A DNA stretch of 64,000 bases, taken from contig CP036424.1 of the NCBI GenBank assembly GCA_007745835.1, forward strand, positions 1,573,001 through 1,637,000, written 5' to 3'. The notes under the pieces were generated by a model. It saw only the letters and a list, made by a program, of their open reading frames with translations. It was not told where the DNA came from and ran no database searches. The DNA is from Planctomycetes bacterium MalM25 (GTDB lineage Bacteria; Planctomycetota; Planctomycetia; Pirellulales; Lacipirellulaceae). Numbering within the stretch: position 1 is the stretch's first letter; every line of letters begins with the position of its first letter. The position numbers and the translations under genes were made by a program. Shown one piece after another: positions 19,346 through 24,024 of this stretch.

Positions 19346-20107
19346 GTGCCCTCCTCAAGCGACCAAACAACGCCGGTTTTGAACGATTTCGAGGCCCTTC
19401 TCGGGGTGGCCAAGACCGCGTTCGCCCTGCTGAGCGAGCGGGGAGAGCTGGTTTGGTGGAATGAGGCCCTTACGCGGATCAGCGAACAGCACCACCAATC
19501 TCCGCAGGCGATGATCACCCAGCTTCTGCCCCCCTACGGGGCGTTGGAGCCCGTTTCGTTCGGGGACGAGGGCCTGCGCCTGATCGAGATCCCTTCGCAA
19601 GACGTGCTCATGGTGAGCGCCGCCTCGGAGCCGCGACTCGACTCGCTAACCGGCGTGCTCACACGCGAGGCGTTCTCTGATGAACTCGATCAAGCCTTTG
19701 CTGTTGCCCAAGAGAAGCCCTTCGCCCTGCTGTTCATCGATCTGAACGATTTCAAGGAGGTCAATGATCACCATGGCCATCTGGTGGGCGATGACTGCCT
19801 GAAATCGGTTGGCGAGCGGCTCGCCTCGGTCGTGCGTGTGGGAGACTCCGTCGGGCGGTTTGGCGGGGACGAGTTCCTCATCCTGCTCCGGGGGGTGGCC
19901 GTGGCCCCCTTGCTGCGGCCGATCGAGAAGCGGCTGAGGGCCTCCGTTTGCGAGCCGATCGAAGGCCCCGAAGGCCCACTCGCGATCGGACTGAGCCTCG
20001 GAGCCGCGTACTCGCGGGACGGCTACGCCACGCCGGCGGAGATGGTCGCCGCGGCCGATCGCGCCATGTACCGAGACAAACGGGCCGACCGCCCGGATGT
20101 GGACTGA
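19346..20107 (+). CDS. diguanylate cyclase (PAS-like + GGDEF)
   Basis: Makes cyclic di-GMP from two GTP. The 253-residue protein begins with a PAS-like segment (about 12-90, including FALLSERGELVWWN) and ends with a GGDEF domain from DSLTGVLTREAF. The catalytic motif RFGGDEF is intact (GGDEF 173-177), FIDLNDFKEVND supplies metal and substrate contacts, and an inhibitory I-site RVGD (164-167) sits exactly five residues before GGDEF, so product feedback is likely. There are no membrane helices. The start is a GTG without a clear ribosome-binding site. Being divergent from the EPS operon, it is a plausible local source of c-di-GMP for polysaccharide control. Confidence 0.9.
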   Translation: MPSSSDQTTPVLNDFEALLGVAKTAFALLSERGELVWWNEALTRISEQHHQSPQAMITQLLPPYGALEPVSFGDEGLRLIEIPSQDVLMVSAASEPRLDSLTGVLTREAFSDELDQAFAVAQEKPFALLFIDLNDFKEVNDHHGHLVGDDCLKSVGERLASVVRVGDSVGRFGGDEFLILLRGVAVAPLLRPIEKRLRASVCEPIEGPEGPLAIGLSLGAAYSRDGYATPAEMVAAADRAMYRDKRADRPDVD

Positions 20108-20223: not shown

Positions 20224-23139
20224 ATGCGGATCTTGAACGCCACGATCGATTCCCAGGGCGAAGTCCCCCTGCAGCGGGCTCGCCTGACTTTGGGCGCGGT
20301 CTCGCCCGGCTTGGCGGCCTATCAGTCGGACTCGATCGACGCCAGCGGTGTGCTGGCGGGGCTCCTCTCCGAGCTTTTGCTCGGCCAGAGCGACGCCCGC
20401 TGGTCGGCCTCGCGTTGGGCCGCCGGTGAAACACGCCTCGGCACGCGCTACGGTGAGTTGCAGCTCCGCCGCGGCGGATCGCCCCGGGCGTCGAAATTGA
20501 CGCTTGTCCCGCAGGGGCCCCGCCCCGCCGACGCCCCGCCCGCCGGGCCGAACGATTGGCAGTCGGGCTTGCCCACTTCGGTGCTTTCGGCCGTCTTCTT
20601 CGCGGAACCGACCCCGCTCGACCCGCTGCGTCCGCTGCTGTCGGCCCCTGTTGCCGAGGCCTTCACGCGTCTCTCGTCGCGTCGCCAGATCGGGCAGACG
20701 CTACCGGAGAAACCCTCGACGCGGCCCGCCGAACAACTGCTGCGACGCCGTGACGAACTGGCCGGGCGCATCGAGGCGCTGCTTGCCGCCCGCCGGCAGG
20801 AGAGTGTGCAGCTCGACGAGCGTCTGGTTGGGCTCGACGCCGACCGCGAGGCGCTCGCTTCGCATGTCGAAGAGCTCCGGCGCCGTGTCCGGGCGCTTGC
20901 CGAACAGCTCGACGCGGATGGTGCACGGGTCCGCTACGAGGAGCTCACCCGCGTGGCCGCCGAGGCCGAGGGCCGTCAGGCCGCCGATGAATGGGGCCCG
21001 CGAGTCGAGGAGCTCGATGAAGAGGTTGCCCGCTGGCGGGCCACGCTCGCGGAACTCGAGAGCCGCGAGACTTATGTCCGAGCCGAGCTGGCGCGGGTCC
21101 GTCCCGACGACGCCGCCCCCCAGCTGCTGCTCGCCGATCAACGAGCTTCGGTCGCCGTCACCCAGAGGTTGGTCGCGGACCTGGAGAGCGAGGTGGCCCG
21201 TTTCGCCCGTTCGGGTGACTCGCCTCATTGCGTCTGCAATGATGCCCACCCGCGGATGAACCCGTTGGTCGAGACGCTCGGACGCCACGTCGAGCGCCTC
21301 GCCGATTTAATCCGCCAGCAGGACGACGCCCTCCGCACCCAGGAGCTGCTCTCCGAAGCGGCCCAGCTCGAACGCTCGCAGAGCGAGCTCCGCCGGCAGC
21401 TGGAGCACCTGCTCGAACGCCGCCAGACCCTCTGGCGGAGCAGCCGGGCTCGCAATGAGCGGACCGACCAAGCGCCGGTCGAGTCGCTCGATCGCGCGGC
21501 GGTTGAGCACGACCACCGCACGCTCGGCGAGGAGTTGTCGGCTCAGGAAGCGAAGCTCCAGGCGCTGGACCGCGAGCGACACGACTTGAGCGAGCGTCGT
21601 CGGCGGTTGCTCGACGCGGGGCAGCTCGGCGATTGGCAGCGCGAGCTCGATGAGTTGCAGGCCGAACTGGCCCGAGCCGTCGATCGCCCCGTGCTCATCA
21701 CGGGCGGGTCCCTGCGGGCGTCGGACGTGCTCGCACGCTTGACCGACGGCGAGTTCGTCGAGCTGCGGCTTGTCCCGGGGGGACGGACCGTCGAGGCCCG
21801 CGACCGCACGGGGCGGATCGTCCCGCAGCACGATCTTCCGACCGCGGTGCAACGCCTTGTCGCCTGGTCGCTTCGGCTCGCTTTGGCCGACGCGTGCCAC
21901 GCCGCCGAGGCGCCGTTCGCCCTGATTTGCGACCAACCGTTCCTTGACCTCGATGATCGCCTCGCGGCGAATCTGGCGACCTGCTTGGACGACTACGCCC
22001 GCCGCGGCCGGCAGATCGTGCTGTTGGCGCGCGACGGCGCCGGTCTGAATCGCCTGCGTAGCTTGGGCGTGATCATCCATAAGCTGGACGGTGAAACGGC
22101 CGCCGATACGCCCGTCGAGCCGATCACCGAGACCGTGGTTCACGAAGAGGCCGTCGCACGGCCGTGGCTGCTCGACATTGACGACCCGATCGCCCGCTTC
22201 CCAGCGCCCTTCGCCGAGCGCGACACCGCCTTCAGGCGGGCGCGGATCCGCACCGTCGGCGAACTGATCGGCGGCGACCCCAGCGCCCTCGCCGAAGAGA
22301 TGGCGGTGGAGGGGGTAACGGCCGAGTTGGTCTCGCTGTGGCAGGCCCATACCGCGCTGGTTTGCTTCACCGCGGGGCTCGACTTGCAGGCGGCCAAGCT
22401 GCTGGTAGAGTGCGACGTGTTGTTTGTCGAGCAACTCGCGGCGGCGGACCCCGAGCACCTTCGCCGGGCGCTGCGGAAACGGGGCGCGAGCGCCGAGCAG
22501 CAGGCGCGGGTCGAGCAGTGGATCGAGGCGGCGTCCTCCGGCGTTGAGCGATGGAAATCGACCGGCTACGCCAAGGCGTGGCGCCGCAACCGCCGTGAGC
22601 GGCGTGACCGCATCCGCGAGAACGCCAGCCGCCGGCGATCGCGTTCGGACGAGCGGCCCCGCAAGCGTCGGGTGCGTGAGAAAAAGAAGGTCGAATCGTC
22701 CCTCAAGTTCTATTTGGAGCCGTCCGACGACGTCGAGGCGGCGCCCTCAATCGGCCCCAAGCGGGCGGCCCAGTTGACCGCGCTCGGCGTGGCCCGGGTG
22801 TCGCAGCTCTTGGAAGCCGACCCGCAGGACCTGGCGGCCCGGCTCGAAGACAAACGCGTCGATTCGGCGACGATCGTCGCCTGGCAGCACCAGGCAGGCT
22901 TGATGTGCCGCGTACCCGGCCTCCGCGGCCACGACGCCCAGGTGCTCGTCGGCAGCGGGTTCACCCAGCCCGAGGAGATCGCCGCGATCAAACCGGCCGA
23001 GCTGCTCGAGTTCGTGGAGCCCTTCTGCGACACCTCCGAGGGCCAACGGGCCCTCCGCGGCTCCGCCCGCCCCGACCTCGCGGAGGTCACCCAGTGGGTC
23101 GAGGGCGCCCGTCAACGGCGGGCTGTTGAGGTGGCTTGA
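20224..23139 (+). CDS. SMC/Rad50-like coiled-coil protein with decayed ATPase motifs and two C-terminal DUF4332/HhH-like modules
   Basis: 971 residues. Residues 1-60 align in outline with the N-lobe of YhaN/RecF-type ATPases, but where GPNxAGKT is expected there is SDSIDASG (35-42). Residues about 165-480 are a long heptad-rich, Arg/Glu/Leu coiled coil interrupted at 331-345 by SPHCVCNDAHPRMNP, an apex with His335, Cys336, Cys338 and His342. Residues 490-620 resemble the C-lobe (LARLTDGEF, a degenerate signature LPTAVQRLVAWSLRLALAD, Walker-B-like ALICDQPFLDLDD with Gln for the catalytic Glu). Residues about 645-775 and 830-965 are two repeats resembling DUF4332/helix-hairpin-helix, separated by a very basic linker (785-825). 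The ATG follows GGAGGGGAGCGTT. Confidence 0.75.
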   Translation: MRILNATIDSQGEVPLQRARLTLGAVSPGLAAYQSDSIDASGVLAGLLSELLLGQSDARWSASRWAAGETRLGTRYGELQLRRGGSPRASKLTLVPQGPRPADAPPAGPNDWQSGLPTSVLSAVFFAEPTPLDPLRPLLSAPVAEAFTRLSSRRQIGQTLPEKPSTRPAEQLLRRRDELAGRIEALLAARRQESVQLDERLVGLDADREALASHVEELRRRVRALAEQLDADGARVRYEELTRVAAEAEGRQAADEWGPRVEELDEEVARWRATLAELESRETYVRAELARVRPDDAAPQLLLADQRASVAVTQRLVADLESEVARFARSGDSPHCVCNDAHPRMNPLVETLGRHVERLADLIRQQDDALRTQELLSEAAQLERSQSELRRQLEHLLERRQTLWRSSRARNERTDQAPVESLDRAAVEHDHRTLGEELSAQEAKLQALDRERHDLSERRRRLLDAGQLGDWQRELDELQAELARAVDRPVLITGGSLRASDVLARLTDGEFVELRLVPGGRTVEARDRTGRIVPQHDLPTAVQRLVAWSLRLALADACHAAEAPFALICDQPFLDLDDRLAANLATCLDDYARRGRQIVLLARDGAGLNRLRSLGVIIHKLDGETAADTPVEPITETVVHEEAVARPWLLDIDDPIARFPAPFAERDTAFRRARIRTVGELIGGDPSALAEEMAVEGVTAELVSLWQAHTALVCFTAGLDLQAAKLLVECDVLFVEQLAAADPEHLRRALRKRGASAEQQARVEQWIEAASSGVERWKSTGYAKAWRRNRRERRDRIRENASRRRSRSDERPRKRRVREKKKVESSLKFYLEPSDDVEAAPSIGPKRAAQLTALGVARVSQLLEADPQDLAARLEDKRVDSATIVAWQHQAGLMCRVPGLRGHDAQVLVGSGFTQPEEIAAIKPAELLEFVEPFCDTSEGQRALRGSARPDLAEVTQWVEGARQRRAVEVA

Positions 23140-23280: not shown

Positions 23281-24024
23281 ATGAATCGCTACGCGTCACT
23301 GTCTGACGATTTCTACGTCAACATGAACCTGAACACGGAGATGGACCTCCCCAGCAGCCGTGACATCGTGCTGCACTTCGCCGAGCAGATGCAGAAGCGT
23401 TACCCGGAGATGCGGAACTTCTACGGCCGCGATCGCAACGACTTCGTGCTGGAAGAGGACAAGGACAAGGGCGCCTATCGTTGGTGCTCGATCGAGCCGC
23501 GGCGGCTGTCGTCCGGCCATGTGAACCCTAGCAGCATCGAGGACGCCCTCGAACAGCACCGTCGGGCGCTGGAGCTGGCCCCCTACGAGCTGTCGGTCAG
23601 CCCACTCGATTGCGAGGCGCTCGATCTCTTGTGGGGCTTCGATTTCAACTACCGCGGCAACCACAACCAGCTGGTCGCCGAGGCGCTCGGCGTCTGCCCC
23701 GGATTGGAGAAGGTGGCCGGCATCCCCGGCGCGGCGTTCGTTAATCACGAGCCCACGCTGACCCTCGCCCTCGACGAGGAGTGCCGCACGCAGTGCCGCG
23801 TGGGGGTCGAGACCCGCACGACGCCGTACCACATCCGCACGGGCGAGTACCAAGAGGACCAGCTTTCGGTCTACGTGACGGCCCGTCGCTACGGCAGCCT
23901 CGACCCGGGCCAGACGCTCGTCAGCGCCATCAACGACCTCTCCGAAGTCGCCGCCGAGGTGCTGGACAACTACGTGATCGATTCGATCCTCGAGCCGCTC
24001 TCGCGTGCGATCTCGATGCACTGA
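23281..24024 (+). CDS. uncharacterised conserved protein, 247 aa
   Basis: Soluble, acidic, compact protein starting MNRYASLSDDFYVNMNLNTE. Distinctive segments are YGRDRNDFVLEEDKDKG, GFDFNYRGNHNQLV (residues 118-131) and RYGSLDPGQTL. There is no signal peptide, membrane helix or catalytic motif I can name. I recall very similar proteins across planctomycetes, so strong purifying selection is likely. The longer frame to 23212 lacks support; the ATG at 23281 starts the conserved part. It lies 141 bases after the SMC-like gene on the same strand, so the two may be co-transcribed. Confidence 0.8.
   Translation: MNRYASLSDDFYVNMNLNTEMDLPSSRDIVLHFAEQMQKRYPEMRNFYGRDRNDFVLEEDKDKGAYRWCSIEPRRLSSGHVNPSSIEDALEQHRRALELAPYELSVSPLDCEALDLLWGFDFNYRGNHNQLVAEALGVCPGLEKVAGIPGAAFVNHEPTLTLALDEECRTQCRVGVETRTTPYHIRTGEYQEDQLSVYVTARRYGSLDPGQTLVSAINDLSEVAAEVLDNYVIDSILEPLSRAISMH

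Follow-up and report, generated by a model that had tools for sequence, protein, structure and literature searches.

Rad50 and SMC proteins are understood through the ATP-driven opening and closing of their heads. Rad50/SbcC, the partner of the nuclease Mre11/SbcD, has an ABC-type head split by a long coiled coil with a CxxC hook at its apex. YhaN, represented by the Pfam family AAA_27 (PF13514), is the partner of YhaO. These names, the hook and the canonical forms of the ATPase motifs belong to general knowledge of the families, and the motifs are displayed by canonical loci of our sample. DUF4332 (PF14229) is a domain without a function known to Pfam. Here we describe a gene of Planctomycetes bacterium MalM25 (Lacipirellulaceae), located in a window of 64,000 nucleotides (64 kb) of contig CP036424.1 (positions 1,573,001 to 1,637,000), which encodes a protein of 971 residues, hereafter the MalM25 protein. 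The protein is homologous to Rad50/YhaN heads, has lost the ATP-site motifs, belongs to a family in which such loss is repeated, has an apex conserved in its clade and is under purifying selection. We tentatively propose that it acts as a DNA tether. Loci and rows of the family and of the YhaN set are labelled L, and genomes G, with G000 being the MalM25 genome itself.

Head and coiled coil of the MalM25 protein

The open reading frame (ORF) of the MalM25 protein starts with ATG and is uninterrupted by stops. The positions of the P-loop, ABC signature and Walker B are occupied by the degenerate sequences SDSIDASG, LPTAVQRLV and CDQP (Table 1), and the catalytic glutamate is gone. Unlike Rad50/SbcC, the protein is without the combination of Walker A, signature and Walker B by which a Rad50/SMC-type ABC ATPase functions. 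An ATP-competent YhaN paralogue in the same genome (L143) displays GPNEAGKT, LSRGTREQ and LDDVLVNFD at the matching places, and these are the letters that the preliminary description of the window had expected for an intact ATPase. The altered motifs it had quoted, including HCVC..H, were likewise read correctly from the frame. A mis-set start codon masking a P-loop was ruled out, since the aligned strand-loop-helix is already present from residue 1.

The AlphaFold2 model of the MalM25 protein has a predicted local distance difference test score (pLDDT) of 80; its input alignment of 19 rows contained P-loop-intact relatives, and the model may lean towards the ancestral fold. It predicts a two-lobed ABC head with an antiparallel coiled coil, the mark of Rad50/SMC-type descent. 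A strand (residues 30-34) followed by a helix (38-53) lies at the usual place of the P-loop, and the helices of the coil (167-332 and 337-486), both broken into three, are connected by a turn at 333-336. Foldseek ranked two Rad50 chains of a Mre11-Rad50-Nbs1 complex first; Lamassu, SMC and further head proteins, including SbcC, came next. In VIA-align, residues 1-627 of the model matched the Rad50 heads 3tho_A and 3qf7_A with Z 22.0 and 3qkt_A with Z 20.7 (264 residues, root-mean-square deviation (rmsd) 3.4 Å). SMC (5xei, Z 20.1) and Lamassu LmuB (9uxh_F, Z 19.4) were also among the top folds. Several high-Z matches have an rmsd of 20 Å or more, probably because the arms are bent differently, and trust is placed in the low-rmsd ones. 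With Rad50 heads as the best solved matches, the Rad50/YhaN-type layout suggested in the preliminary description is supported, and the missing likeness of the lobes to ABC-type heads that would have spoken against it was not encountered.

Pfam assigns DUF4332 to the MalM25 protein with 85.5 bits (cut-off 23.2) in two stretches, the better one at residues 841-964 (E 4e-24), together with other HhH-related (helix-hairpin-helix) models and two sub-threshold coil matches. No ABC domain was listed by Pfam, and, unlike YhaN, the protein gave no AAA_27 match at E up to 1. A single absence in hmmscan is not final, as the scan of the whole of L050 lists no DUF4332, yet the genome search gives 44.9 bits there (G011). 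The absence of AAA_27 was therefore cross-checked by a genome-wide search, which gave no match at the locus of the MalM25 gene. NCBIfam returned weak coil matches, including SMC (E 4e-4) and Rad50 (E 8e-4), all far below the cut-offs. The top three chains of a phmmer search against solved structures were archaeal Rad50 (E 0.02-0.04, over residues 452-604), which is weak alone and agrees in direction with the predicted fold. The Archaea-specific SMC-related proteins (ASRP) are presented as a family in PMC9389158. P-loop-intact relatives match them weakly in NCBIfam, with the best match (L117) at E 2e-12 and 46.7 bits against a cut-off of 300, and the MalM25 protein had no such match at E up to 1. 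A defence system was considered and rejected. PADLOC yields only weak LmuB and CARF matches on the coil (LmuB over 187-482). Nor are defence genes found among the neighbours scanned, which encode a GGDEF protein, a sugar transferase and a conserved protein of no confident family.

Recurrent loss of the ATPase motifs

Relatives of the MalM25 protein were found in 25 of the 39 genomes searched, including 23 of the 24 from the same family-level group, with G012 among the 23 contributing a fragment at E 1e-5 and G033 and G034, outside the group, matching mainly in the C-terminal part. Head, coil and DUF4332 can be aligned over the full length in the family alignment A1 of 19 rows, the other 18 of which are 30-68% identical to the MalM25 protein. 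One peptide pattern, scanned against 84,980 species genomes, gave 84 loci, 80 of which were retained; to judge from the record titles and their genus names, all 80 are from planctomycetes. The pattern lies inside DUF4332, and therefore members without this domain are under-sampled. The 105 sequences gathered were reduced to 98 by removing repeats, and the 94 with 480 residues or more were aligned. Twelve rows (seven without this head, five truncated) and eight YhaN of canonical or other type (L139-L142, L144-L147) were left out. The tree further omitted L084 and L124, in which the P-loop stretch is missing, and comprised 89 rows, 80 from the family and nine outgroup YhaN-type rows. Columns of the P-loop, the signature and Walker B were excluded from its construction.

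The P-loop motif GK[S/T] is present in all nine outgroup rows and in 45 of the 80 family rows, and absent in 35. Five losses are required on the tree, all five forced by its starred branches (bootstrap range 5-5). The P-loop-lost groups are the MalM25 clade (13 rows), a Pirellula-type clade (12), a Mariniblastus-type clade (6) and the pairs L067/L079 and L065/L066. A single ancient loss is rejected for the two largest lost clades: joining the MalM25 clade with the Pirellula-type lost clade gave p-AU 1.8e-6 in the approximately unbiased test, for groups named after the tree had been seen. A long branch attaches L119 to the Pirellula-type clade, and a false join could add a loss and hardly remove one. 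The question raised in the preliminary description, whether the P-loop is lost in all planctomycete homologues, thus has a divided answer, as the loss is not universal but recurrent.

No row of the MalM25 clade has a lysine at the aligned P-loop position; the loop letters vary among genera, and L040 has a four-column gap there. Walker B is partly kept in this clade, as DEP in L035, L040 and L044 and as DQP in the MalM25 protein and its two nearest relatives. Judged by its motifs, the Rhodopirellula-type clade (14 rows) is a sixth, different inactivation. Its P-loop is kept, Walker B is changed from D-[DE] to E-T/S/I in 13 rows (L072, L074, L075, L076, L081, L082, L097, L098, L100, L107, L109, L118, L120) and an LSRG-type signature occurs in none of the 14. 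In the members with ET, ES or EI, Walker B is followed by an insertion, and their linkers reach 261 residues. Rows called intact here have the P-loop and Walker B; many such Lacipirellulaceae rows have an unusual signature (for example LTPGERDQ). Five of the eight P-loop-intact members scanned with Pfam pass AAA_27 (L064, L070, L080, L117, L045), and four of these also pass AAA_23. Genome searches within the same family-level group matched AAA_27 at 5/13 P-loop-intact and 0/10 P-loop-lost family loci. Because 45 of the 80 family rows keep the P-loop and five of the eight such members scanned pass AAA_27, the head of the MalM25 protein is a decayed ATPase.

The MalM25 gene is under purifying selection, with ratios of non-synonymous to synonymous substitution (dN/dS) of 0.24 and 0.25 against L032 and L031 (pairwise Nei-Gojobori estimates at dS near 1). 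Other pairs from lost clades gave 0.20, 0.35 and 0.22, and the sole intact pair tried, being saturated, yielded none. The regional values against L032/L031 are 0.36/0.43 for the N-lobe and 0.28/0.27 for the C-lobe of the head; 0.13/0.15 for the first coil, 0.16/0.08 for the apex (25 codons) and 0.21/0.19 for the second coil; and 0.31/0.35 for the first HhH module (HhH1), 0.30/0.47 for the linker and 0.11/0.13 for the second (HhH2). Constraint is tightest on the first coil, the apex and the last HhH, and loosest on the P-loop lobe and the linker. Mean identity in the N-lobe, C-lobe and HhH2 is 0.30, 0.42 and 0.59 among 12 of the 13 lost rows (without L040), versus 0.45, 0.59 and 0.60 among 12 of the 15 intact Lacipirellulaceae rows (without L050, L041 and L048). 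Between these two sets of rows, loss of the ATPase goes with a looser head.

Apex, C-terminal modules and gene neighbourhood

The turn of the model carries C336, C338 and H342 to the tip of the arm, which agrees with the apex position proposed for HCVC...H in the preliminary description. The apex is CxC-x3-H (336-342) instead of the CxxC zinc hook of Rad50. This motif is present in all 13 rows of the MalM25 clade. CxC occurs in 3/15 intact Lacipirellulaceae rows (with the histidine in two), in 4/7 basal rows and also in L064, L065, L066 and L067. Among 17 outgroup and other YhaN rows, C-x1-3-C was found in L152 alone, away from the protein middle, and canonical planctomycete YhaN (L139-L142, L144-L146) are without such a pair. 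Most simply, these alignments suggest that the cysteine pair is old in the family, was kept in the MalM25 clade and was lost elsewhere. The preliminary description had regarded both the apex and the HhH modules as gained by the MalM25 protein. The modules were not gained, and most simply neither was the apex, since P-loop-keeping basal-clade relatives have both. At a coiled-coil rise of 0.15 nm per residue, an arm of ~160 residues is roughly 24 nm long, and two arms joined at the apex would span up to ~50 nm. Rad50 hooks are presented in PMC6969161 as stable dimerisation modules that can be swapped with the SMC hinge, and an apex dimer of the MalM25 protein is plausible by this analogy.

In distinction from Rad50/SbcC, the MalM25 protein carries C-terminal HhH modules, which it has in common with DUF4332 proteins. 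The two modules foreseen in the preliminary description are borne out by the two Pfam stretches and by two bundles in the model, at about residues 666-779 and 845-963. Modelled alone, the C-terminal part has a pLDDT of 90. Foldseek with this part found nothing at E 0.001 or better. VIA gave Z 8.0 (81 residues, rmsd 3.4) for the acidic repeats of NusA in 5lm9, and Z of ~5-6.5 for N-domains of the RadA/RAD51 family, including RAD51C, and for the HhH of Y-family polymerases. These matches to a predicted structure are consistent with two HhH bundles, though not strong. With profile A2, the HhH2 stretch matches Y-family DNA polymerases at E 0.001-0.04, ahead of chance-like matches, which begin at E 0.27. 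The hairpin of HhH2 is APSIGPKRAAQL, and hairpins of the IG-P-K type are typical of DNA-binding HhH. The strongly charged linker between the modules (Table 1) has a net positive charge in almost every row of the family. Homologues without the modules, which the preliminary description had counted against its reading, do occur as two short P-loop-keeping members, L041 (680 residues) and L048 (733 residues), and no DUF4332 match was found in their genomes (G014 and G022). DUF4332 is also present in 5 of 14 control genomes outside planctomycetes. The two DUF4332 matches in the MalM25 genome both lie within the frame of the MalM25 ORF and are one gene, so a recent degenerate duplicate was rejected. 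In seven planctomycete rows (L021, L024, L110, L113, L122, L127, L128), DUF4332-type modules are attached to a different N-terminal part. The C-terminal tail (window 23128-23136) ends with Ala-Ala in 82 of the 94 aligned rows and with Ala in 89, and the MalM25 protein ends with Glu-Val-Ala; a conserved Ala tail recalls ClpX-type degrons.

A YhaO/Mre11-like gene adjoins the family gene upstream in five of the seven members of the basal clade (L070, L077, L071, L080, L117), and the four of these genes that were scanned gave no Pfam match. The gene of L070 matches the YhaO beside canonical YhaN in L132-L134 (tblastn E 8e-24 to 3e-21). The motifs GNHD and GHxH are gone in all five and kept in all seven canonical-type YhaO compared, which suggests that the YhaO-like proteins of the basal clade are catalytically dead. 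A YhaO-type profile found nothing in the MalM25 window or in 100 loci outside the basal clade (some being repeats of one locus), although some loci stop at contig ends and single absences may be false. Within the window no Mre11/SbcD/YhaO-type nuclease gene was found. The paralogue L143 lies at G000:C1 about 508591-513524, ~1.08 Mb from the MalM25 gene. A dead nuclease stands beside a live ATPase also there: a YhaO-like gene is located upstream of L143 and of its eight counterparts (L148-L155), with GNHD and GHxH lost in 9/9. AAA_27 frames of similar length, possibly of the same paralogue, are found in genomes with a P-loop-intact member (G006, G008, G019, G020).

A GGDEF gene is located within 200 bp upstream of the family gene in nine distinct loci, eight P-loop-lost and one intact (L050), and the genomic position of the family gene is kept across the loss of the P-loop. 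A link of the MalM25 protein to cyclic di-GMP is conceivable from this neighbourhood.

Table 1. Features of the MalM25 gene and its neighbours (positions in the window)
Feature	Position	Strand	Basis
GGDEF diguanylate cyclase, upstream neighbour	19346..20107	+	Pfam E 7e-37
Rad50/YhaN-type pseudo-ATPase with C-terminal HhH modules, 971 residues	20224..23139	+	ORF, Pfam, model
N-lobe of ABC-type head, residues 1-165; with linker, least constrained	20224..20718	+	Model superposed on Rad50 heads; dN/dS
Degenerate P-loop SDSIDASG, residues 35-42; G/A-x4-GK-[ST] in intact relatives	20326..20349	+	Alignment
Ascending coiled-coil helices, residues 167-332	20722..21219	+	Model; dN/dS 0.13-0.15 for 166-325
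Coiled-coil apex HCVCNDAH, residues 335-342, CxC-x3-H	21226..21249	+	Model turn 333-336; 13/13 clade rows
Descending coiled-coil helices, residues 343-486	21250..21681	+	Model
C-lobe of head, residues 491-625	21694..22098	+	Model; phmmer Rad50 matches over 452-604
Degenerate ABC signature LPTAVQRLV, residues 538-546; LSRGTREQL in paralogue L143	21835..21861	+	Alignment
Degenerate Walker B CDQP, residues 569-572; DEP in P-loop-intact Lacipirellulaceae relatives	21928..21939	+	Alignment
First HhH module, divergent DUF4332, residues 645-780	22156..22563	+	DUF4332 genome match, model
Basic inter-HhH linker, residues 783-829, net +16 over 47 residues	22570..22710	+	Charge count
Second HhH module, DUF4332, residues 841-964	22744..23115	+	Pfam E 4e-24, fold matches
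Downstream conserved gene without confident Pfam family	23281..24024	+	Pfam scan; conserved in 16 loci, some repeats of one locus

Proposed function and its alternatives

Two copies of the MalM25 protein may join at the coil apex through CxC and the histidine, perhaps by a metal or thiol bond. The two heads would no longer open and close with ATP. The HhH modules and the strongly basic linker would grip DNA, and without consuming ATP the dimer could bridge two stretches of DNA with a distance of up to roughly 50 nm between them. We give slightly less than even weight to this reading, that the MalM25 protein is a Rad50/YhaN-type pseudo-ATPase acting as an ATP-independent, apex-dimerised DNA tether, in which the tethering, the metal and the DNA binding are putative. 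As for its history, the YhaO/Mre11-like partner probably lost its active site before it dropped out of the locus, and the ATP gating of the head, no longer needed once the partner was gone, probably then decayed repeatedly. With somewhat more reserve, we suggest that in planctomycetes a Rad50-type ATP-driven DNA machine has been remodelled, in steps and more than once, into a passive tether of DNA: its nuclease partner would have died and then been lost, the ATPase would have died at least six times (five P-loop losses and one of Walker B and signature), and the coil, the clade-wise CxC-His hook and the HhH-basic-HhH end would remain.

Several observations weigh against the tether and its proposed history. 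The HhH modules are slightly acidic, with net charges of -5 and -6, and contacts with proteins are also made by NusA acidic repeats and RAD51-family N-domains. The preliminary description had named homologues lacking the Cys/His apex as contrary evidence, and such homologues are found in three clades with lost ATPase motifs (CxC in 0/12 Pirellula-type, 0/14 Rhodopirellula-type and 0/6 Mariniblastus-type rows), whereas all 13 rows of the MalM25 clade have it. Some losses are mild or arguable: three of the six Mariniblastus-type rows have G-x4-G-R-T, in which arginine replaces lysine, and L063 of the MalM25 clade has CKT one column off the P-loop. Three of the eight P-loop-intact members scanned (L050, L106, L098) fall below the Pfam ABC cut-offs. 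The dN/dS values are weakened by dS near 1. A lax N-lobe is by itself no mark of ATP loss, as in two other intact groups its identity is 0.49 versus 0.86 and 0.52 versus 0.77 in HhH2, and the intact Lacipirellulaceae have the same tendency (0.45 versus 0.60). In the Pirellula-type lost clade the N-lobe (0.71) exceeds HhH2 (0.65), and the dead head is not a relic there. It is therefore not upheld as a general rule that the head becomes laxer once ATP use is lost. The partner-first order leans on five loci, and many loci end at contig ends.

The HhH modules might bind not DNA but a protein, for instance RNA polymerase or some repair factor, and the pseudo-ATPase would then be a scaffold. The acidic modules and their nearest folds, the NusA repeats and the RAD51C/RadA N-domains, are in favour of such a scaffold, but the Y-family DNA polymerases found by profile A2 over HhH2, the strongly basic linker and the IG-P-K-type hairpin point to DNA, and we regard the scaffold as unlikely. 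It is less likely still that the MalM25 protein is one half of a mixed ATPase, its inactive head being paired with a live YhaN-type head encoded elsewhere in the genome, in the manner of asymmetric ABC dimers. L143 could provide the live half, and the dead N-lobe is strongly kept in the Pirellula-type clade. However, L143 is encoded far from the MalM25 gene, the similar AAA_27 frames also occur in P-loop-intact genomes, and the N-lobe is among the least constrained parts of the MalM25 gene.

The changed loop could still bind nucleotide or another ligand, with gating surviving in altered form. The strand-loop-helix geometry kept at residues 30-53 of the model, the DE of Walker B retained in 3/13 lost-clade rows and the displaced CKT of L063 would fit residual binding, but the letters of the loop differ between genera, one row has a gap there and none has the lysine, which makes this explanation very improbable. 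Functionless decay is strongly disfavoured and the least probable of the alternatives. The erosion of the motifs and the low N-lobe identity of the lost rows, at an HhH2 equal to that of their intact sister clade, resemble decay, whereas stop-free frames in relatives of several genera, dN/dS of 0.20-0.35 in all five lost-clade pairs that yielded an estimate and the invariably kept apex speak for a gene in use.

No published description of such a family was found by title or shown abstract, in a coverage outside which most subscription journals lie; for DUF4332, the literature searched gave a mention in the figure legend of one paper. The parts of the DNA tether proposed here are already known; their repeated conversion and its combination with HhH modules were not found in the literature searched. 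By this analysis a pseudo-nuclease stands beside live ATPases, and DUF4332 gains a structural and evolutionary context. The family, in which the ATPase was inactivated five times at one motif and once at others while the gene, the predicted head fold, the arms and the HhH end persisted, forms a natural separation-of-function series in which it becomes testable which tethering functions need ATP. If the proposed reading is true, the family would show which parts of the Rad50/SMC machine are enough in the absence of ATP. Condensed nucleoids are a noted trait of planctomycetes, and we speculate that an ATP-free DNA bridge may be of interest for their organisation.

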